Part shown: positions 2,762 to 35,393 of the stretch, piece after piece
Position numbering within the stretch: position 1 is the first letter of the stretch
How the letters are laid out: every line of letters starts with the position of its first letter
Source: a virus
Length of the DNA stretch: 61,109 bases
Virus record (IMG/VR): IMGVR_UViG_3300005608_000006
Location: 1 to 61,109 of that record
Reading direction: 5' to 3' (one strand)
Made by a program: the position numbers and the translations under genes
The notes under the pieces: generated by a model
Database searches by the model: none
What the model saw: the letters and a program-made list of their open reading frames with translations, nothing else
Told to the model about the DNA's origin: nothing

Positions 2762-4411
2762 TCACCTAAACTCCCACATATATGACTTGTCTCCATATTC
2801 CGCGACTTTCCAGACATCTCCCTGTGCATCTTTGAACTGATCCTCTTCAAAACCATCAGAAACAAATCCAAATGGAGCCATGTCTTGTTCTATAGCATCT
2901 CGTTGATCATCATATATTCTTTGTCTTACATCATTATCATGCATCTCTTTAAAGTAAGGTTGCATTGCCATCCATGAGAAAATAACCAAACACATTGCTA
3001 GGTCATCATTACACCCTTCTTCTGCAGCAAATGATTGACCTTTCTGAATGAATGTAGTTAGTTCCGCAATGGTATCGTAATCATTGATTGATAACTTATC
3101 TTCTTCTATTAATGCTTTTAGATTAGAACATCCAACTTGTTTTGCTGCTGTAGACATTTTTAAACCAAGTTGTGTCTTCTTACCAGAGAATCCTTGACCA
3201 AGTTGTTGACCTGCACGTCCTCTCATTGAACACATGAGAAGGTTCTCGTACTCTAAGTCATATTGAATGATGTCTGCAACCTGTCCACCTATATCATTTA
3301 CCTCACATAATATGTAAGCACCATTATAGTTCTTGGCTACATCAACAACTATATTAGGAAGAACAATAGGTTTCACTTCATTGTTTCTATACCTTGCTAC
3401 CATTTTATATGGTAATGTCGTTGTATCAAACACCACGAATGCAGAATAATCATTACCAATACCACGAGATACGTCCACAGTAACAATGTAATTATGTTCT
3501 TCTATCTTGTTTTCATATATTGCTAGACCTCTATTTTCCTTTATTGGATCATGATAAGGCATTGTTCTTAGTTTACTTGGTGCTATTAACGTATCTACAG
3601 ATCCCAAGAACTCACATTCAAACTCAACTCTAAACTGTTGTTCTGATGTGTTTTTAATTGTTTGTTCTTTCCATACCTCATCACGACCTGGCACTTCAGA
3701 CCAATGAACTTCAGTTGGGACGTATTCATTAGTTCCACGCTCTGCATCATGCCAGAGTTTGTAGAACATGTTCATTCCGTGAGGAGTAGATATGATAATA
3801 ACTTTTGTAGACTTACCTGAGGAGATAGTTGGATAAACAGAACTAAAAAACTGATCAGCGATATGATTTGGAATGAACGCGAATTCATCCAAAAATATAA
3901 TGTTAAACGACATACCCCTAACAGCAGAAGCAGAAGTAGATGCAGCCATGATCTTACTTCCATTCTCCAATTCCAATGATCCTCTGTTCCATTGGAGGAT
4001 TCCTTGTTGGAGGTATTTGGGGAGACTTTCATAACTTAGTTGTAAACGTTGTAGCATTTCACGAGCAGTCGCTGCTTTGTTTGCAAGGATTGCTACGTTA
4101 ACATTAGGATTGAATAGAACATACCATAAAAGATATGAGGTAACAATAGTTGATTTACCAGACTGTCTTGGTAGTTTTGCTATATTAAATCTATAGTCAT
4201 GGAACTTTGATACCATCTCTTCTTGGAAATGATACATGTCAAACGGAATCAAACCTTTGTCTAGAGATACTATCTTAATATAATTCCTGATAAAATACAC
4301 AGGATCTTCAGAACACTTCAGTACTTCCTTAACTTGTTTCTTAGTAAATTTCTGAGAAACATTTGCTTTTTTTAAATTAGGATTACCTAAGTATTGCTCA
4401 GTGCTTGCCAT
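2762..4411 (-). CDS. gp17: Terminase large subunit gp17 (packaging ATPase/nuclease)
   Basis: 549 residues; T4 gp17 has 610. The N-terminal ATPase has a Walker A (PRQSGKST, K86), a Walker B with catalytic carboxylate (IIFLDEFAF, D175-E176) and a coupling motif (IISTPHG, near 207-212). The C-terminal RNase H-like nuclease has VDVSRG (D313), ILCEVND (E370) and GCNDDLAM (D469/D470). The D313-E370 spacing of 57 equals D401-E458 in T4. The protein pumps DNA into the prohead and cuts the concatemer. Its first 25 nt overlap the end of pcyA, so expression may be coupled to that metabolic gene. Its partner gp16 is about 5.7 kb upstream, separated by an accessory block. Confidence 0.98.
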   Translation of the reverse strand: MASTEQYLGNPNLKKANVSQKFTKKQVKEVLKCSEDPVYFIRNYIKIVSLDKGLIPFDMYHFQEEMVSKFHDYRFNIAKLPRQSGKSTIVTSYLLWYVLFNPNVNVAILANKAATAREMLQRLQLSYESLPKYLQQGILQWNRGSLELENGSKIMAASTSASAVRGMSFNIIFLDEFAFIPNHIADQFFSSVYPTISSGKSTKVIIISTPHGMNMFYKLWHDAERGTNEYVPTEVHWSEVPGRDEVWKEQTIKNTSEQQFRVEFECEFLGSVDTLIAPSKLRTMPYHDPIKENRGLAIYENKIEEHNYIVTVDVSRGIGNDYSAFVVFDTTTLPYKMVARYRNNEVKPIVLPNIVVDVAKNYNGAYILCEVNDIGGQVADIIQYDLEYENLLMCSMRGRAGQQLGQGFSGKKTQLGLKMSTAAKQVGCSNLKALIEEDKLSINDYDTIAELTTFIQKGQSFAAEEGCNDDLAMCLVIFSWMAMQPYFKEMHDNDVRQRIYDDQRDAIEQDMAPFGFVSDGFEEDQFKDAQGDVWKVAEYGDKSYMWEFR

Positions 4412-27200: not shown

Positions 27201-28417
27201 GGGAATCCAAAAACATTATTGATCTTACTATAATTACCCATATTGAATGGGATAGTTATATTCTGAGCAGCATTAGTATCTCTTGGTTTTACCAAGTCAA
27301 CATATGCAGGTGCTAAGTTTTTAACTCTAAATCCTTTAACATATGCAGTACCAGGACCAAACTCTACAGCATAGAAACTTTCTGCAGCACTATTACCTTG
27401 TGCTGTAGTATCTCCTGATACATAAACACCATTATTAAATCCATCGTCAAGGTTTTCTCTAATAGTGATTTGAAAATCTTTAACAACATAATCACCAGAC
27501 TCTTCATAAGTTCTAAGAGCCATAGATTTTTCTAGTTCATCATATGCACTACGATCAACAATTTTTTCTATCTTATTACCATTAATACGAAGTAATTCGA
27601 TGAAGTCTTTATCTGCATCATCATCAATTAACTTCTTAATTAGATTAGTTGTTATTCTGAATCTATGAGCACCAGGAGCAGCATAATTAGATGTGCCTGC
27701 AGCGTTATCATTAAGGGATAAGTCATCTTCTGGGGTGATGATTGACTCAAGGATTTCGAGTCCGACCCTGTATTTGGGGTTGGTTGCATATTGTTCAAGA
27801 AGAATGTATTGATAAGGAACATCTACGAAGAATCCTCTAATGAAGTATACACCTTCTTGGACGTATGCTACAGATCCTCTTTGAATAGCAGATGTTGGAA
27901 GTAACTGTGCAAATGGAGATCCAACTTCAATAAGAGTGGTTCCAAATGTAATTTCAGTATCAGTAACTAACTGTTCATTGTTAGTAAAAGTTGTCTGGTC
28001 GTTACCTGTACCACCAGATTCAATGTATTTAAGGTAAAGTGTGATATATCCTTTCGTCGAAACTGTCTCTGAGATAGAGAATAATACTTTTGCTTTTACA
28101 CCAGAGGTCAAACCAGTTATGATTTTACCTTCTAATTGAGTTCTATACAATTCAACGTCAGCACCCAAGAAAGATTCTTGAAGCATGATCGCATCGGTTT
28201 CTAGGTCATATCCAACTTGACCAGGAATAACCATTGCACCATCTTTAAACAGATGAGAACCTACATTCTCGATCTGATTCTGCATGACGCTTTGCATCGA
28301 TGTCAGTTCTCGTGCCTGTATTGGAAAACCAGGACGGAACAGCACTCGATAAAAGTTTTTCGCTTTATCGAAATCGTCGTAGTATGGGGTGACGTTTAGA
28401 TTGGTATTTTGTGCCAT
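21200..28417 (-). CDS. Large virion protein with DUF4815 (2,405 aa)
   Basis: 2,405 residues. The N-terminus (TPYYDDFDKAKNFYRVLFRP, then GFPIQARELTSMQSVMQNQI) is the DUF4815 signature of large cyanophage baseplate/virion proteins. Near 1320-1400 is an Arg-rich segment (about 22 Arg in 62 residues) next to VVPWIRSRNVEVSV and FFGFFDGQ. Near 1610 is the family's WWDPLAQSFLVDEEGGCFLT block, followed by a YFNTKD...IRTMENGYPTINILPF stretch. The C-terminal half holds shared beta modules (GETITGNSSGA) and ends in a conserved SAYQIKLVLVSPNQALVPLL region. It occupies the gp9/gp10 position after gp8, so it is probably a peripheral baseplate or fibre-attachment protein. The start overlaps the gp8 stop (TAATG). 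Confidence 0.92.
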   Translation of the reverse strand: MAQNTNLNVTPYYDDFDKAKNFYRVLFRPGFPIQARELTSMQSVMQNQIENVGSHLFKDGAMVIPGQVGYDLETDAIMLQESFLGADVELYRTQLEGKIITGLTSGVKAKVLFSISETVSTKGYITLYLKYIESGGTGNDQTTFTNNEQLVTDTEITFGTTLIEVGSPFAQLLPTSAIQRGSVAYVQEGVYFIRGFFVDVPYQYILLEQYATNPKYRVGLEILESIITPEDDLSLNDNAAGTSNYAAPGAHRFRITTNLIKKLIDDDADKDFIELLRINGNKIEKIVDRSAYDELEKSMALRTYEESGDYVVKDFQITIRENLDDGFNNGVYVSGDTTAQGNSAAESFYAVEFGPGTAYVKGFRVKNLAPAYVDLVKPRDTNAAQNITIPFNMGNYSKINNVFGFPNTSGSTITNAYQTVELRDTFSASAGTAAGNVIGYARCASMEFLSDSNSTFGDANDEYKLYLYDVQMFTAIEMATAQTITYGSLVVGKTSGARGYIEAAISSADHMNLYQVEGEFQVGEMLTVDGLDKDTVEVVHTYAYSDSRQVVTRDESTTSVEFTADLVLSDFTAIQGDNFTYDATSSNEKITGLNSNFAADLRPGDRIFFSSTKFVDVDKVNPTSLTANQISTIFDFAQFEVDVTPGAGSAAPSAGEYTNLVRYRATLLDTLGASLLQPLPKPYVKSISDESMVVRRTFDGQTVAANSVSITLPENEQFEAISNENYTITALAGSNSTYTPGKQIPIDTSNTAALGYSAFTSADRTTLQIDNLTNITSVKINATISKNVTQRKTKSPTKMFVMKVNQTIKNLDVQNYQLTYSNLYGTRIEDRDISLGLADAYTVHAVYESLDDSDPIIPSITLVEPTFFANGTIVTGKTSKARARVVDFNSSSLKLTIVYLDGTFVSGETVSGTDSGGTAINGIINDSAGSIVVGSKVITDRYDLVSGQTEFLYGISKLVRRKGVAEPIRKLKIVLDYYNHSATGDYFGGQSYLSTSYEDIPIFDGAYLPDFLDFRPGCKNLYAGTGTVASPAYVNVGTFDFKRRIFPTSSTPAATIFDIPKINSNFRCDFDWYLKRIDKLFITPEGEFQIVKGKSEEEPTEPDNLSDGMLLATLYHSPYGFDPAKDVFIIKSENRRYTMRDIGNIEDRVNRVEYYTSLNMLEADTFNTEITDANGQNRLKNGFIVDDFSDHSKSATNEEDYSVSLDFTDGTCHASHYTTNISLILNSSLSTNYQQTGPLITLPYQEEVLIEQPYASRVENVNPFNVFAYIGRIDLLPQSDNWIDTRRLPVNVIDIEGDFQATRLRLRVDQNGFAPIQWNSWQTTWRGVVRRSTRTVRSGRRSDWGRGRAVDRITRITTRRRQVRRGIRTRVVPRIDRRSVGDRMVSSTVVPWIRSRNVEVSVFRMKPRTNFFGFFDGQKIDEYLIPKIIEVIKDPSVDNRTNATPFVPGEIVTGETSGCKFEVDPADNFYAYNPYDDTAMPTSYSSTTNFINIDTDKLAAQAVGDYYGNFQVGEVLVGASGAKAVVRQRRLVTDRLGQWKGSFFIPDPSVDTNPRWATGERTIRFTTSETDSRLPGAVDSSAQAEYSASGTQNTLQENVLAIRNAEIVRDTRTQRRTRNSTRTERRQVGWWDPLAQSFLVDEEGGCFLTSVDVYFNTKDSAIPISMQIRTMENGYPTINILPFSDVTVNPADVQISETGAVATRFTFRAPVYIPQSEEHCFVLFSDSNEYKVWISRMGEIDITGDRTISEQPYAGVLFKSQNATTWTADQYEDLKFIINRANFTTTATSRVTLNNNALKRGNGGEINLSTDAIQTFKPELQLVMNSTSLPYTVGARLKQKTTLAEGTITAVTPNAGGKILTINDISGAWTAGSNTGGVITNRVVSSKTLATMVVTSASGDFTVGETITGNSSGAPTAEVVTWTAGTNTLTLKFVSDDFATTSEGITGGDSGTTATVGSTFTPTGDAVETGAISNAFVSTTPTYTTAQRKVRVSHSNHAMHDSDNNVTISNVKSEIAPTTLTASISATDTTLNVNDATAFHKTINGSGIGSANPGYIYVKNITSGDGEFVLFSVGEIMSYSAISSNGKTITIHERGLGGTTARTFGEGALVECYNLDGIPLTEINKTHTGVLSPTIDTYDISTNSIARLGIRSGGSRMYATQNIQYEVIDPNIQRLILPRTSVTARVNTITGTSINDSITLSQNSFSNTGEFFDVNLNDNNYFNTPQLICSEINESSELSGEKSFRLDLTLTSEINNISPVIDTDRMSATLISSRINNPADPNTAKLAFGDEHEAVYITKVADLTNPSSSIKVMFAGFRPPNTFIKPLYRVLPVGSTDSIDTQGYQFFPTGDASIPDTTETEEFFDYEYEVSGLNFSAYQIKLVLVSPNQALVPLLKDFRAIALAV

Positions 28418-29949
28418 TAGAACTCGATTACGATTTTGATATCTTCTACCTGGTCGTTTGCACGACTAATAGATCTCCTATTATCTATGTAAACAACCTG
28501 ACCGCTATTTGATTTAACTTCGGGTTTTGCATATCCAGAGTTAAATTTCATACCTAAGTCGTATTCTGTGTTGTTAATAGTTCTTGAAGAAGTATTAGGG
28601 ACTGCAGGAAAGTTAACATCAGGTTGACCAGCAGCACCAGATGTTACACCATTAATAACGTTTGATCCATCAAATTCATTTTGTGTACCAGTAACTTCTG
28701 GGAAGATACCGTCTACAGAGTTTTGATAGTATTTCAAAACTTTTGTTGTTGCGTTCCAAGAAATAACACGAGCACGAGCAGTAACAGTCGTTCCACCGAC
28801 AACTCTACTCTGTGTCATGATTTCATCAGGAACATAATTACCTTGGAATGTAGGTGAGAAGATAACTGCTTTAGTAGCAGAAACTGTTAAATCAGAAATT
28901 AATTCAGTAGTTCCAAATTTTAAAGGGTTAGTAATTAGACCAATACGACGATAGTCGTTATCAATCGGGAAGTCACCAGCACCTTCATCATAAGATAGTT
29001 TTGCATTGATCATAACTCGGAAAGCACCAAGTTCTACAACTGAATCTTCACCATGTCCACCTGGAGGAGGAATGATAACATCAACTTGTCCACCAGAACC
29101 AGTTCCGATACCTGCTATACTATCAACACTAATTTTACCGAATGTATATCCAGTTCCACCAGATGTAACAGTAGCAGAGATAATTTTACCACCATCTACA
29201 ACAATAGAAACTCTACCACCAGTTCCATCTCCATTTATAGAGACGTTATCATAAGTTCCGTTGTTATAACCAGAACCAGCAGCATTGATTACAACAGTGT
29301 CTATTTCACCTGCAACTGCGTTCGTTTGAACAGCATCGTTAGTGAACACTGGCATATAATCATTTGAAAAGAATTTAAGAACCGATGCTACGGGGATGGT
29401 ATACATGTATTTCCAACGATAACCATCACCAGTAGTAATGATTGAAGTAGAAGTACCTGTAGGTTCCACTGTAGAAGGTTTTCCATTAGGATCGCTTGGC
29501 GATGTTCCATTGTAAATTACTTTATAAACTTGATATTGAGAGTTTACAACATAGAAGTCGGAATCATATAGTTTGGTAGCACCTGAGGAAGCAGTTTTAG
29601 TTGGAGAATAGTCATGACGATACATGTCATAAGTAAATCCCAAACCACCAGTAGTTTGTTCTGGAGAAACCCAGTCAATTCTACGACAAACTTGAACAGT
29701 ATCAGAAGCTAGGACTCTCTTCATGGATACCATATCATCATATGAATCAGCAAACTCTGAGAATGAATCAACTGCCTGTGGAGGCGAGTTTTCATTATCC
29801 CATGATTGTGGTCTACCAATAAAAAGGTAGAGCCTATCCCTCGACGTGCCTGCTGCATCATCACTTTGAGATGCTACAGGACCTTCGAGTGCTTTAATGA
29901 ATTTTTTCGCTGAAAAAATCCTAAATTGATCAGTTAATAGAGCTGCCAT
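28417..29949 (-). CDS. gp8: Baseplate wedge protein gp8
   Basis: 510 residues; T4 gp8 has 334. The N-terminus (LTDQFRIFSAKKFIKALEGP, then DRLYLFIGRPQSWDNENSPP) and TGDGYRWKYMYTIPVASVLK are typical of the cyanophage gp8 family, a wedge component linking gp7/gp10 and gp6. Near 215-295 there are inserted Gly-rich repeats (INAAGSGYNNGTYDNVSING, then TSGGTGYTFGKISV) of the kind found in the giant protein, and near 370-430 a RVISWNATTKVL...TSGAAG module. These insertions explain the extra length. A TATAAATA late promoter lies 26 nt upstream. Confidence 0.93.
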   Translation of the reverse strand: MAALLTDQFRIFSAKKFIKALEGPVASQSDDAAGTSRDRLYLFIGRPQSWDNENSPPQAVDSFSEFADSYDDMVSMKRVLASDTVQVCRRIDWVSPEQTTGGLGFTYDMYRHDYSPTKTASSGATKLYDSDFYVVNSQYQVYKVIYNGTSPSDPNGKPSTVEPTGTSTSIITTGDGYRWKYMYTIPVASVLKFFSNDYMPVFTNDAVQTNAVAGEIDTVVINAAGSGYNNGTYDNVSINGDGTGGRVSIVVDGGKIISATVTSGGTGYTFGKISVDSIAGIGTGSGGQVDVIIPPPGGHGEDSVVELGAFRVMINAKLSYDEGAGDFPIDNDYRRIGLITNPLKFGTTELISDLTVSATKAVIFSPTFQGNYVPDEIMTQSRVVGGTTVTARARVISWNATTKVLKYYQNSVDGIFPEVTGTQNEFDGSNVINGVTSGAAGQPDVNFPAVPNTSSRTINNTEYDLGMKFNSGYAKPEVKSNSGQVVYIDNRRSISRANDQVEDIKIVIEF

Positions 29950-29987: not shown

Positions 29988-32900
29988 TTACGAGCGAAGG
30001 ATTGTTTGATATTCAATTCGTTTTATTCTATAACGTGCACCACCGTTACCAATTAGGTCTTCGCCACCTAAAATTGCCTGTGCAACAGCACCACTACCAG
30101 TAGTGTCGCCAGTCGCATTTGTGAATGTCACGGTAGGATGTATGTTGTATGTCCCGTCAACTGTCTGAGGGATACCATATCCACCATTAACAACACTGAT
30201 AGATGCTACTTGGTCACCTGCTGCTGTCATGACAGCAGTTGCAGTTGATTGTATATCACCAGTATTTTCAATAGCTATAGTTGGAGGTGCGGTATAGTTC
30301 GTTCCTGGTGCTTGAACGTAGTAATCAACAATAGTTCCCTTAGATGAGAACTCATATAAGAATCCACCTATTCCAACATTAATATTAGTTGTGTTATAAG
30401 GAACAATATTATTTACAACTAATAATGAAGTTGATGGATCCCAAGAAACAACCGTTCCTTGAACAGATGACACAGATCCAGTTACAACGTCATTAACACT
30501 GTAGTTTTGTCCGTTTCCATTATTAGCATCTAGATATATGTTTAAAATACCATTATGCTCAACACCATCTGCTAAAGTACCTGCTGCTGTGATACTAGCA
30601 TACTTGAATGGTATAGTAGCATCTTTTATGTTATCACCAACTTGGAATAGGGTTGTGTTAGTTCCACCCTGAGTTTCTTCAATACCATATAATGAATTAT
30701 ATAGTCCACCATCTAAACTAATTTGGTTAGCATATTCAGTAGAAGTATTTACCAAATCAGGAATGCCATCACCAGCACCAGCATTTTCAGCAATATCTTG
30801 AAACTTTCTATTATTGAAAGTGGAGATTGGTTCTGTTAATAATGTAATAGTATCTCCATTTGAAACCAAAACAATATGAGGTTCTTTTCCAGATGGAGCA
30901 CTTGCAGCAGTACCTGCATCAAATTGAACGATAGCATCTAAAGTAGATGGAATACCACCATCAATAAATGCTAATTCGTCAACTTCAAATGTAACTAGAA
31001 GTTCTCTAGTATTAGGATTCCAGTCATATACCTTTGCAACTTTGTTATTTGCATTTTCAACTCTACGAATAACTCTATCACCAACATTAAATTTATATGT
31101 TGATATACCACTTTGATCATTCTGAGAAGTATCAAGAATAACTCTTTGATCATAATTAAAGTTTACACCTCTGGTTAATCCAGTAAATCTACCTTCACCT
31201 TTACCAGTATATGATACTGTTTCTGTATCAATGATTAGATTACCAGAACCAGGAAAACCATCTGTGGAATCAACATATACAGTTGTCTCAGAAGCAGTTA
31301 AGTTTTTAACTAGACCAGTAAGATATATCTGTTCAGAGTTATTTGCTTGTCTAGCATCTGTCTTTCGTTTTAAGTTTACAAGTTTTGTAAAGATAATATT
31401 TGGAGGATTTACATACCCAGAACCAGGATCTGTTACTGTAATACCAGTTATTTGTCCTTGACTAATTTGTGCAGTTGCTTTTGCACCAATTCCACCACCA
31501 CCTGTAATTAAAACAAATGGAGGTTCTTGATAGAATTCACCTGGATTTGCAACACTAATTGATGTAACCTTACCTAAAACATCAATTTCTGCAGCACCTT
31601 GAGCACCAGTACCTCCACCACCACCTTCAAATATAAGAGTTGGAGGAGTTGCATAAGATCTACCCGAATTAAGAAGCGATAAACCAGTAACAGTTTGAAC
31701 AACAGGAGTTCCTAAAGCACCAGTTCCTTCTCCACCAAGTATTTTTGCTTTTGCAGGACCAAAGTAATTATCACCTTTCTTTGTCATCTTGATATATGAA
31801 ACACTACCATTAGAAGCAAGAACTACATCACCCTCTGCAATAGTTGGGAATGTAGATTCTTGAGTAGGTAATAGATCTCCTTCATCAACAGGAGTGCTAT
31901 ACATTTTAGGACCGATAGCATAAGGATAAACAGGTTCACCACTACTATTTTCGGTCATAAAGTAAGCGTAAGTTCCATTTGGATACTCTGGAGTCGGAGC
32001 AAATTTACCGTTATATTCATCTAAAGTTCCTACAGATGAATCGTAAATATAATCACTTGTTAAATCACCGATTAAATATCCTTCATTAACAGTTCTAATC
32101 CAAAGACCAGAAGTTGAATATCCAAAGAGATATAAAATACGGGGAGAATTTACAGGAATTGTAAATCTTACTTCACGACTTGTTGCTCCTTGGAATGCAG
32201 AAAGATAACCTTGATATGTTACTTCAGATCCATTGATAAAATATTGAATCCCTTGACCTGCATAAAGATATGTTGTGTTTCCTATTTCAGAAGCACCTAC
32301 ACTATGCCAACCATCTTGAGTTTCTGAAATAAACAAACCATTAAAAGCAGATGCTGAGTTACTAGCATCATTTTGATTAAAGATATATTGTTTTCCTCTA
32401 TCTAAATCTAAAAATGCAGGTCTACTACCATCAAAATAGAATTGTCCATTGGAAATAGTAACTGCGTATGTAACAGTTCCTGTAGTAGTTACAGGTTGTC
32501 TAGCACCTTGAATTTCTGCAGTAACTCTAGTTCTATAACTAGATACTTCTCTAGCAACTGCACCACTAGAATTATATCCATAAGGTCCGTAAATTGGATA
32601 TCCATCATATGACATACCCAAAATTTTTGAATGACCATCAACATGTCTTGAACGATCTATTGTTGATGTATCATTAGCATCAGATTGATAGTAATTTTCA
32701 ACGTAATATGTATTTTGATTACCAGTTCTCGGAGATGATACCGTTTTTATCATGTAAGATTCATCACCAGCATATCCACCCATATACCTGTGATTAGCAC
32801 AATGAATGTAAACTTTGTTTACCTCATCGGTATTCATTATGAATATTGGTTGATATATGTTTTCGTAATCTGCAGATATTGCTGCAGAAGAACCAGTACT

Positions 32901-34163
32901 ATTATAATAAAGAGTTCCACCATTTAAAGTTCCATCAGGAGTTGTGCTGAATCTGATAGAATGATTACCACTTTGATTACTAGAATCTGACTGATCAAAA
33001 ATAATTAATTGATTTGCTTGAACTTTTATATCTTCGGGTGCAAAGTAAAAAGTATTTGGTGCGAAAGGACCAAACTTGTTTGCACTAGGACCAAATTCTA
33101 TGTAATAAGGATTAACTGTAATTGGAGTTCCACTTACTTTGAATGTAAATCCATTTGCACCAATACATAAATCATTTTCTAAAAACGGATCACCAGTAAG
33201 ATCACGAAGATATATTCTTGTAACTGCTCCACCAGAATCTTTTACAACTTTTGTTACTTCACCTTTTGCAGTTCCACCTATCTCATCAACAACTCTACCA
33301 ACTTCAACAAATCCTAAAGTTTCATCTACATTAGTAACATTTAACATTACGTTACCAGTTTCTACTTTAACAGTCCAAGTAAATACTTCTAAATCACCAT
33401 TTTCAAATACACCATTTGTAAGTGCAAATTCATCAACAACTTTACTTGAATGATAATAGTAAGTATTATTATCCAATACAGCATCATATACATTTGATGA
33501 TTTTACATAATCATATTTTACAGTATCAATAGGTAAATTTACATCTGCATTACCTATAGTTCCCCAATCTGGTGTATGTAATAAACCACCATTTGCCAAA
33601 ATACCATTTACTGTATTTGGTCTGAATACTCTTGTAGTAGGATTTGGAACATCTTTACCACCACGGTAGATATATGCTTGATTGAACGTTCTATCAACAA
33701 TGTCACCAGACCCACCTGGTTGCCTCTCAGAGAGGTATAACTGAGATGGTTTAGGGTGATTATCGGATGTTATTGTTAATCTATCAACTTTCTGTCCATT
33801 ACTATCTGTAGCAAAGACTCCTGATGTAGGAGAATTTGGATGACCTTGCCAAACTCTATTAATATCAAATGAAGTTATAACGCCTGGTGTATCTTGCTCT
33901 GGAGTAATTTGAAGTCTTAAAGGATCATATCCTCTACCTCTTTCTAATACACGAACGTGTGTAATTCTACCAGAGTCTGTGTCAATAATTGGATATAAAA
34001 TTGCCTCTACGTCTGGAGTTCCACATCCATCCACGGTAAGTCTAGGAGGATCAGTAGGATCGTAAGATGATCCTCCATTGATAACCTCCACTGCTCGAAC
34101 ACCAAACAATTCGTCAAAAATTGGTTTGATCTCTGCACCAGAACCAGGAACTGTTCTTGCCAT
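29988..34163 (-). CDS. Virion protein with cupredoxin-like and YHYH domains (1,391 aa)
   Basis: 1,391 residues. The N-terminus (VPGSGAEIKPIFDELFGVRA) is followed by Gly-rich beta units. Near 372-475 is a cupredoxin-like domain with GNHSIRFS (His near 402) and a late IHCANHRYMGGYAGD motif (C-x2-H-x2-M). Near 513-535 is the first half of a YHYH domain (SYDGYPIYGPYGYNSSG), and near 708-756 its second half (LDEYNGKFAPTPEYPNGTYA, then YPYAIGPKMYS). Between them, near 556-705, lies a second cupredoxin-like segment without the metal ligands. Residues 790-945 are GGGGxGA repeats, and the rest is Gly-rich beta modules. Late virion protein by position; likely baseplate or fibre periphery. Confidence 0.88.
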   Translation of the reverse strand: MARTVPGSGAEIKPIFDELFGVRAVEVINGGSSYDPTDPPRLTVDGCGTPDVEAILYPIIDTDSGRITHVRVLERGRGYDPLRLQITPEQDTPGVITSFDINRVWQGHPNSPTSGVFATDSNGQKVDRLTITSDNHPKPSQLYLSERQPGGSGDIVDRTFNQAYIYRGGKDVPNPTTRVFRPNTVNGILANGGLLHTPDWGTIGNADVNLPIDTVKYDYVKSSNVYDAVLDNNTYYYHSSKVVDEFALTNGVFENGDLEVFTWTVKVETGNVMLNVTNVDETLGFVEVGRVVDEIGGTAKGEVTKVVKDSGGAVTRIYLRDLTGDPFLENDLCIGANGFTFKVSGTPITVNPYYIEFGPSANKFGPFAPNTFYFAPEDIKVQANQLIIFDQSDSSNQSGNHSIRFSTTPDGTLNGGTLYYNSTGSSAAISADYENIYQPIFIMNTDEVNKVYIHCANHRYMGGYAGDESYMIKTVSSPRTGNQNTYYVENYYQSDANDTSTIDRSRHVDGHSKILGMSYDGYPIYGPYGYNSSGAVAREVSSYRTRVTAEIQGARQPVTTTGTVTYAVTISNGQFYFDGSRPAFLDLDRGKQYIFNQNDASNSASAFNGLFISETQDGWHSVGASEIGNTTYLYAGQGIQYFINGSEVTYQGYLSAFQGATSREVRFTIPVNSPRILYLFGYSTSGLWIRTVNEGYLIGDLTSDYIYDSSVGTLDEYNGKFAPTPEYPNGTYAYFMTENSSGEPVYPYAIGPKMYSTPVDEGDLLPTQESTFPTIAEGDVVLASNGSVSYIKMTKKGDNYFGPAKAKILGGEGTGALGTPVVQTVTGLSLLNSGRSYATPPTLIFEGGGGGTGAQGAAEIDVLGKVTSISVANPGEFYQEPPFVLITGGGGIGAKATAQISQGQITGITVTDPGSGYVNPPNIIFTKLVNLKRKTDARQANNSEQIYLTGLVKNLTASETTVYVDSTDGFPGSGNLIIDTETVSYTGKGEGRFTGLTRGVNFNYDQRVILDTSQNDQSGISTYKFNVGDRVIRRVENANNKVAKVYDWNPNTRELLVTFEVDELAFIDGGIPSTLDAIVQFDAGTAASAPSGKEPHIVLVSNGDTITLLTEPISTFNNRKFQDIAENAGAGDGIPDLVNTSTEYANQISLDGGLYNSLYGIEETQGGTNTTLFQVGDNIKDATIPFKYASITAAGTLADGVEHNGILNIYLDANNGNGQNYSVNDVVTGSVSSVQGTVVSWDPSTSLLVVNNIVPYNTTNINVGIGGFLYEFSSKGTIVDYYVQAPGTNYTAPPTIAIENTGDIQSTATAVMTAAGDQVASISVVNGGYGIPQTVDGTYNIHPTVTFTNATGDTTGSGAVAQAILGGEDLIGNGGARYRIKRIEYQTILRS

Positions 34164-34169
34164 TTAATC

Positions 34170-35393
34170 TTAACTTACTACGTTGATTGTTCCTTGCATT
34201 GAAGCATGGATTGTACATTGATAATAAAGTGTAGTTGGAGAATCCAAAGGAACTGTCCAATACAAGATAGAAGATCCACTACCACTTTGACCAGCAGTAT
34301 ATGGAGTTCCAGTCAAACCTTGTGTGCTTTGAATTCTAAAGGGGTGTGCACCACCAACAGAGTTATCAAAAGCATATGTAAACCCTCTATAAACATAAAG
34401 AGTTGGATCATTGACTGTTCCTGAGAAACCAGGACCAGAGAAAGTATAATCAGAAGATCCATTAGCACCTACTTCCCACCAAGTCATTGGACTTCTGCTT
34501 ATTGACCAACTAGAACCATTCCAATAAAGTGAATCACCTTGAACAACGCCTGCTACGTTTGTATCAGTCAAAGCAGCCAATGTTGTAGAAAGAGATCCTG
34601 AGAAGTTAACTGTAAGAGTATCACCCGAAACTGCAGTGGTTATGTTACTTCCACCAGCGATTGTCAATGTATCTGCTGTAGCATTAGCAGTTGTTGATCC
34701 ACTATCACCAGCTACAGTTGCAAATAAGTTTTGTGTTGCTCCTCCACCTGCACCCTCATCATCGGCTGGTGCCCAGTTACTTCCATTCCACTTCAATATT
34801 TGGTTTGTTGTAGGTGCAGCAGTAGTTGTATCTACATCAGCTAACTTATCAATACTTGAATATTGAGTTATTATCTGTGCTCTTGTATCACCAACACCAC
34901 CAGCTGTTATGTTGATGTTAACATATGGATTATCATCACCATCAACAGTAAAAAAGTATCCAGTGTAAGTTGCAGCAGCTGGTGCATTTCCTAACGCTGA
35001 ATATTCATTTTTATATTGAATTGATGTAGGAAAGTCTATAGTTCCTGTTGCACCATCAAATGTTGATGTAACACTACCAGCTGTCAGGAGAACATCTCCA
35101 GTTCCGTTTGGTGCTACAGTAATATTTCCATTTGAAGATGAAATAATTGAGTTACCAGAAACATCTAAGGCAGATGTTAAGGTAGTATAATCTGAAGGTA
35201 AAAATGTAGATCCATTGTACCTTAAGATCTGTCCCGTTGCAGGGTTAGTGGTATCAACGGATAATGTTGATCCATTCCCCAAAGCGGTATATATTTCGTT
35301 AAAATTATCGTTAATCTTATCACCGCCAACTCTAAGAGTATCACCTGTATTATCATTAGCTGCGGATCCAAGACCTAGAGTTTGTTTAGCCAT
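34170..35393 (-). CDS. Fibre-like virion protein with C-terminal cupredoxin domain (407 aa)
   Basis: 407 residues. The N-terminus (GSAANDNTGDTLRVGGDKIN, then DNFNEIYTALG) is the common adaptor start of phage fibre proteins. The middle is Thr/Asn/Gly-rich with an ATTNQILKWNGSNWAP unit typical of such proteins. The last 75 residues look like a cupredoxin: YVYRGFTYAFDN, GGAHPFRI (H350), then TLYYQCTIHASMQG (C393, H396, M399). H/C/H/M is the type 1 copper ligand set of plastocyanin. Whether copper is bound is unknown. CATAAATA lies 18 nt upstream and overlaps the giant gene's stop codon. Confidence 0.86.
   Translation of the reverse strand: MAKQTLGLGSAANDNTGDTLRVGGDKINDNFNEIYTALGNGSTLSVDTTNPATGQILRYNGSTFLPSDYTTLTSALDVSGNSIISSSNGNITVAPNGTGDVLLTAGSVTSTFDGATGTIDFPTSIQYKNEYSALGNAPAAATYTGYFFTVDGDDNPYVNINITAGGVGDTRAQIITQYSSIDKLADVDTTTAAPTTNQILKWNGSNWAPADDEGAGGGATQNLFATVAGDSGSTTANATADTLTIAGGSNITTAVSGDTLTVNFSGSLSTTLAALTDTNVAGVVQGDSLYWNGSSWSISRSPMTWWEVGANGSSDYTFSGPGFSGTVNDPTLYVYRGFTYAFDNSVGGAHPFRIQSTQGLTGTPYTAGQSGSGSSILYWTVPLDSPTTLYYQCTIHASMQGTINVVS

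Follow-up and report, generated by a model that had tools for sequence, protein, structure and literature searches.

In phage T4, six trimers of gp9 sit on the baseplate, and excerpts of PMC3004832 describe an N-terminal domain that binds gp7, a C-terminal domain to which the long tail fibre attaches coaxially, and a meeting of gp9 with gp10 once the fibres go down. Phage tail proteins that hold metal are also on record, excerpts of PMC11705849 dealing with iron-binding HxH motifs in the tail fibres of T4 (gp37) and alterophage R22Y. The virus record analyzed here, IMG/VR record IMGVR_UViG_3300005608_000006 (61,109 nucleotides, called the window at its full length), encodes on its minus strand a baseplate wedge or tail-fibre connector protein of 407 residues (34170-35393), whose last 107 residues are modelled as a cupredoxin domain carrying the four ligands of a type-1 copper site. 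Whereas the fibres of T4 and R22Y hold iron by pairs of His residues, both the fold and the presumed metal are different here.

The protein has in common with T4 gp9 an N-terminal domain of PF07880 (residues 3-101; 35091-35387, minus strand; E-value 1.1e-10, 42.3 bits against a cut-off of 25) and the baseplate gene context. The common part is the N-terminal 55-100 residues; coliphage records gave no tblastn match to the cupredoxin domain, whereas 596 records from Escherichia have a match to the N-terminal part. The family phrog_677 covers residues 1-406 (E-value 1.1e-195), and a phmmer comparison of the first 55-60 residues with PDB found T4 gp10 at 3.4e-6 and gp9 at 2.3e-5. Since both are matched, gp9 is used in this paper as the PHROG and record name, and the identity in T4 terms is not settled. 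The middle part of the window matches 275 phage records, the first word of whose names is always Synechococcus, Cyanophage or Prochlorococcus (T4-like cyanophages). Judged by sequence, the 407-residue protein is a gp9-type fibre connector of a T4-like cyanophage.

We lean towards the reading that its C-terminal 107 residues constitute a cupredoxin subfamily that has a complete set of type-1 copper ligands and a short, amicyanin-like loop, and in which the metal would serve as a structural staple. A preliminary description of the window had proposed that two adjacent virion proteins carry cupredoxin-like domains with a complete ligand set, and this is borne out for the two baseplate proteins by the fold model of the 407-residue protein, by profile homology for the first domain (D1) of its 1,391-residue neighbour, and by strict conservation.

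Fold and ligand loop of the C-terminal domain

The domain comprises residues 301-407 (34173-34493, minus strand) and was modelled by AlphaFold2 using alignment A2, which holds 37 rows from a list of 52, with the phage records L081-L089 and the D1 rows left out. The model has nine strands and zero helices, with a mean predicted local distance difference test score (pLDDT) of 94.8 and a predicted template modelling score of 0.87. Among PDB structures, Foldseek gave 13 matches with E-values of 0.001 or less, 12 of which are titled copper nitrite reductase (three-domain), rusticyanin, pseudoazurin or plastocyanin, while the title of the 13th (3cvd) contains no protein name; amicyanin follows at 1.1e-3, and the lower rows also hold unrelated names, e.g., aspartic peptidase. 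Structure prediction, which the preliminary description had suggested as a check, thus gives a confident cupredoxin model whose best PDB matches are blue-copper proteins. The best fold match is the N-terminal cupredoxin domain of three-domain copper nitrite reductase, with 2dv6_A (residues 24-132; Z 10.7, root-mean-square deviation (rmsd) 2.2, 93 aligned residues, 23% identity) as the top VIA row and 6tfo close to it (Z 10.6, rmsd 2.1, 22% identity); there the domain is part of an enzyme, whereas in the window it is part of a virion protein. The A2 profile also found copper nitrite reductases among PDB sequences, at E-values of 0.0017 and 0.016. From the model, we consider it nearly certain that the C-terminal domain has a cupredoxin fold. 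In BFVD, 64 predicted viral structures match the domain model at an E-value of 0.001 or less, and beta-sandwich proteins of Pithovirus and Marseillevirus are found there as matches by fold.

The four proposed ligands are His350 (codon 34344-34346), Cys393 (34215-34217), His396 (34206-34208) and the axial Met399 (34197-34199), all on the minus strand, invariant in A2 and exactly where the preliminary description had placed them. Cys393 is the sole Cys of the protein, and His350 and His396 are its sole His residues. Such a set of His, Cys, His and Met is that of type-1 copper and suits zinc poorly. The assignment of the axial ligand can be compared with rusticyanin, for which VIA gave rows with Z of 8.3 to 9.6. 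In these rows residue 106 of the model pairs with residue 155, and counting seven residues back places M99 of the model on Met148, the residue altered in the rusticyanin entries titled Met148Leu and Met148Gln; this agrees with Met399 as the axial ligand, provided that the end is aligned without gaps. Among the 49 stop-to-stop open reading frames (ORFs) of at least 100 residues in the window, the pattern H-x(25-65)-C-x2-H-x2-M occurs only in the 407- and 1,391-residue proteins. In both, an upstream His precedes a last loop of the general form C-x(2-4)-H-x(2-4)-M (H350/C393/H396/M399 and H401/C455/H458/M461).

The preliminary description had likened the site to that of plastocyanin, and this comparison did not hold. 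The cupredoxin fold and four ligands of the same kinds are common to both, whereas the true plastocyanins of syn9, Bellamy and S-SCSM2R have the loop CGPHKGAGM, i.e., C-x2-H-x4-M, and the window domain has C-x2-H-x2-M, the spacing of amicyanin chains (CTPHPFM and similar). The Pfam plastocyanin family PF00127 matched neither the window domain nor any other part of the window record, and a stand-alone copy of the domain in S-SCSM2R scored 13.1 bits against a cut-off of 21.2. Because of the loop, the lack of a PF00127 match and a weak hhalign comparison, membership in plastocyanin was rejected. In addition, a separate true plastocyanin gene (petE) was present in all three phage records of this group that were searched (syn9, Bellamy and S-SCSM2R).

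The resemblance to amicyanin consists of the fold, the loop spacing and a phmmer alignment of the S-SCSM2R stand-alone copy that runs through the loop (best E-value 0.08). The amicyanin family TIGR02657 did not match the window domain, and its score for the stand-alone copy (21.2 bits) is far from the cut-off of 110.2; another difference is that the window domain belongs to a virion protein. Since amicyanin spacing, profile matches to nitrite reductase and a sub-threshold amicyanin match are found together, the window domain looks, by its sequence, to be built like a short-loop blue-copper protein outside the Pfam plastocyanin and NCBI amicyanin families. Two further names were tried for the domains and rejected, namely the At5g54830-like domain PF25489 (16.1 and 19.5 bits against a cut-off of 27) and glycosyl hydrolase family 62, which was also below the cut-off.

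Conservation, loss and distribution of the ligand set

Rows of the domain were classed by locus, by position and, for separating D1 from the second domain (D2) of the 1,391-residue protein, partly by ligand pattern; class sizes given here are those of the later rule, an earlier one having given slightly different sizes (83 and 76). The four ligands (HCHM) are kept in 82 of 82 gp9-type rows, 79 of 81 rows of fibres like that of podovirus P-GSP1, and 25 of 26 cellular rows, the misses in the latter two classes being rows without these columns. They are kept also in all six diverged gp9-type proteins of other genera (ACG-2014d, P-TIM40, S-WAM1, S-RIM14, S-N03 and S-SZBM1). When 28 rows non-redundant at 80% were compared, only five of 107 columns were invariant, i.e., the four ligands and a Tyr (H50, Y91, C93, H96 and M99 in domain numbering). 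This set contains gp9-type, fibre, other-phage and cellular rows, with rows of more than 25 gaps excluded as in the other non-redundant column counts; the S-B43-like rows and both domains of the 1,391-residue protein were excluded by group, not by ligand, and with these rows added the ligand columns are no longer invariant. Exactly one Cys, the ligand, is present in 37 of 38 distinct full-length gp9-type proteins, a count that covers the 60 of 82 gp9-type rows with a MAKQ start.

A natural loss of the ligands is found in a clade of tail fibres like that of S-B43 (L214-L262), in which FATM, FAVM, FSTM or FAIM replaces HCHM in 46 of 49 rows, with the Met retained; of the other three, L261 has the full HCHM set and two rows are incomplete through truncation. 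Among 14 non-redundant members of the clade, each of the ligands H, C and H survives in a single row, while the eleven other A2-invariant positions are kept in 12-14. In a tree, the ligand-less rows fall within ligand-bearing ones, beside L261 and Bellamy; the small number of columns and the length of the branches make its deep forks unsure. Joint loss of H, C and H with the fold intact is as expected of a metal site given up once, and it also means that the fold does not need the ligand residues. In S-B43 itself the A2 profile has a single match, which lacks three of the ligands. These natural variants provide a ready control.

The distribution of the C-terminal domain is narrow. Of 50,697 phage records, 344 have a tblastn match to it, and 334 of these are named Synechococcus, Cyanophage or Prochlorococcus, the remaining ten being six Marine, two Pelagibacter, one Actinomycetia and one uncultured. 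The N-terminal 114 residues were found in 1,746 records, including the 596 from Escherichia and 272 from Klebsiella. Within the sensitivity of tblastn, on which this comparison depends, the protein is therefore widely shared, and its cupredoxin is the part specific to cyanophages. D1 matches 222 records, all of them named Synechococcus, Cyanophage or Prochlorococcus.

The module occurs in other protein contexts as well. In P-GSP1 it lies at the N-terminus of the tail fibre protein (residues 20-120; phrog_892), in Bellamy it is part of a protein matching baseplate wedge families, and in S-SCSM2R it stands alone in a protein of 168 residues (XQU50115.1; positions 3794-4300 of record L082) that is annotated as PetE, while the true plastocyanin gene of this phage is at positions 79-321 of the same record. 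The annotation of at least one phage "PetE" can thus be corrected from plastocyanin to baseplate cupredoxin module. Ten loci were found in bacteria, with the best segment 44-57% identical to the Bellamy copy in nine and 36% in the tenth; those read out encode small proteins whose N-terminus looks like a signal peptide by eye. For the order to which one of these loci belongs, a match was found in nine of 151 genomes. The stand-alone proteins of Lysobacterales (Dokdonella and Tahibacter) have the same domain and the same four ligands, whereas they are exported-looking proteins of a single domain and are not parts of a virion. Lysobacterales genomes (L174, L175 and L176) have two neighbouring genes for an exported-looking cupredoxin-like protein.

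The 1,391-residue neighbour and the gene context

The neighbouring baseplate wedge protein of 1,391 residues (29988-34163, minus strand) is covered over its whole length by phrog_708 (E-value 0) and is called "putative fiber" in syn9. Its identification with T4 gp10 was rejected, since no gp9 or gp10 profile matched it, and a phmmer search of the whole protein against PDB gave nothing informative. D1 comprises residues 375-464 (32772-33041, minus strand) and has the motif C455-ANHRY-M461 with H401 upstream; the preliminary description was right that a full ligand set is present, whereas its positions need correction (His401 in place of a His near 402, and C455, H458 and M461 in place of a motif at 458-464, three residues off). 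When profile A2 was compared with that of D1 (A5) by hhalign, they aligned over 76 columns with a probability of 89.9 and an E-value of 1.7e-6, and His, Cys, His and Met were in register. HCHM was found in 74 of 77 rows classed as D1 (including an extra copy from L003), a somewhat circular figure since the class is partly set by ligand pattern. Alignment A3 (26 rows) is a cleaner test; in it the two His and the Cys show no variation, and at least 90% of the rows have the Met. By this homology, D1 is very probably a diverged copy of the gp9-type cupredoxin domain, in fold as in its four ligands. The extra copy in L003 (4519-4878) lies ahead of D1 and keeps H, C and H, with Q at the place of Met.

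D2 (residues 571-685; 32109-32453, minus strand) was found by jackhmmer and VIA and is ligand-less. A model of residues 350-760 has a mean pLDDT of 65, and its listed structural matches are all on D2; the VIA match of D2 to a two-domain laccase is modest (Z 8.3, rmsd 3.2, 112 aligned residues). None of 33 non-redundant rows has any of the four ligands in D2. In ACG-2014d and S-RIM14 (L266 and L269), the large protein downstream of the gp9-type gene has C-x2-H-x2-M motifs in a stretch resembling D2, so D2 may be ligand-bearing there.

D2 is located between two pieces of a YHYH domain and splits it (residues 511-739; window 31947-32633). The first piece, matched by PF14240 on a fragment, comprises residues 511-566 (32466-32633, minus strand; profile positions 93-145), and the second comprises residues 698-739 (31947-32072, minus strand; profile positions 142-183), the whole protein scoring 54.8 bits against a cut-off of 25. 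The two pieces together cover positions 93-183 of the 193 in the profile. Since the YHYH domain is predicted in excerpts of PMC7824862 to be a zinc-binding, tail-associated hydrolase, the 1,391-residue protein may hold two different metal sites.

The order of minus-strand genes is that for proteins of 6,706, 407, 1,391, 510 (gp8-type, PF09215) and 2,405 (DUF4815) residues, which is identical to the order in syn9. The gp8-type baseplate wedge protein is encoded at 28417-29949 (minus strand; PF09215 with 69.2 bits, phrog_438). The ORF of 6,706 residues (35415-55535), which adjoins the gene for the 407-residue protein, contains a YHYH-like stretch, AFDGNPIYGPYGY, seen by eye.

Possible roles of the domains

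According to the reading we favour, each ligand-bearing domain would bind a single ion of copper, or perhaps of a different soft metal, acquired either from seawater or while the particle is assembled in the host. By analogy with T4, this metal staple would rigidify an exposed module at the fibre socket, and the stiff unit would then mediate contact with the host or attachment of the fibre. Should the cyanophage protein serve in the way of T4 gp9, the arrangement of the latter suggests that the cupredoxin is an exposed fibre-socket or host-facing module. The separate steps are to be graded differently. It is likely that the ligand-bearing domains bind a metal, and reasonably probable that this metal is specifically copper, and with modest confidence we regard the role as structural or adhesive rather than one of redox or delivery.

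Several results weigh against this reading. The window domain is below Pfam cut-offs and the NCBIfam scan of window pieces gave zero matches, while hhalign aligned the domain to phage plastocyanins over 19 columns at a probability of only 7.8. For D1, the model is mediocre at its pLDDT of 65, and its profile found in PDB only antibody chains with E-values above 1. The T4 analogy of the 407-residue protein depends on the N-terminal match, in which gp10 is slightly closer than gp9. Finally, phages use the cupredoxin fold without the site in D2 and in the ligand-less fibres of the S-B43 type.

This last point leads to the strongest alternative, in which the domain serves as an adhesin or as a beta-sandwich of structural function and its site holds another metal (e.g., zinc) or none in the virion, the four residues persisting for folding or loop packing. 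Use of the fold merely as an adhesin was raised in the preliminary description, and it is a real option since ligand-less versions have been maintained both in the S-B43-like clade (46 of 49 rows) and in D2 (none of 33 rows with any ligand), and since the module occurs in fibre and baseplate proteins of differing architecture. However, four residues are invariant across phages and free-living bacteria while most columns vary, it is exactly H, C and H that were lost jointly in one clade, and the set is the type-1 copper set, which is poor for zinc. We therefore hold this alternative to be possible and distinctly the less likely, and a metal-holding module is favoured.

The next alternative is that copper on the baseplate docks to, or enters via, a metal-handling surface protein of the host, which would parallel, for copper, the "Ferrojan horse" idea on iron in phage tails. 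Near confinement of the domain to cyanophages (334 of 344 records), though the N-terminal part is present in 1,746 records of T4-like phages, would fit this, and iron-bearing tail fibres together with a Trojan-horse hypothesis are treated in excerpts of PMC11705849. However, no receptor is known, and evidence on the host side was neither found nor looked for. Type-1 copper is, in addition, buried and tightly held, and the docking scheme as a whole is improbable in our view. The domains could also be electron-transfer partners or redox sensors that mimic plastocyanin, and both the intact type-1 ligand set and the photosynthetic hosts of the relatives are compatible with this. Against this stand the place of action of baseplate proteins, which is outside the cell, and a spacing and sequence different from those of plastocyanin. 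Furthermore, family scans of both proteins show no second redox centre and petE is separate in three of three phages, because of which a redox role, including electron transfer by the domains, is unlikely; nothing supports the mimicry of a redox partner considered in the preliminary description, and we rate this explanation slightly below docking. That C-x2-H-x2-M arose here by chance or convergence, with no relation to cupredoxins, for which one might cite the shortness of the motif and the absence of a Pfam cupredoxin family over the cut-off, is hardly credible, being already contradicted by the fold model and conservation and by shuffled sequences, which had the pattern H-x(25-65)-C-x2-H-x2-M in 0 of 20,000 cases for the 407-residue protein and 3 of 20,000 for the 1,391-residue one.

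A further, improbable idea extends the copper-holding reading. The two baseplate proteins, whose genes are adjacent, would both carry copper and would meet during the fibre-triggered switch, and tail firing or host recognition would be gated at the cell surface by the occupancy or redox state of this copper. If true, entry would include a step that depends on copper and is tied to hosts that are photosynthetic and handle copper.

In the literature searched, whose reach left out most subscription papers, no paper was found to describe phage baseplates with cupredoxin domains. The fold and the protein families are already known; what appears to be undescribed is the subfamily itself, together with its position in the virion and the strictness with which its ligands are retained. 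If there are six gp9-type trimers as given for T4 in excerpts of PMC3004832, a particle could hold up to 18 copper ions from the 407-residue type of protein alone. If copper is bound, a widespread group of marine viruses would carry a copper protein in the machinery of host contact, which would tie the entry of phages to the chemistry of trace metals, a link already proposed for iron.

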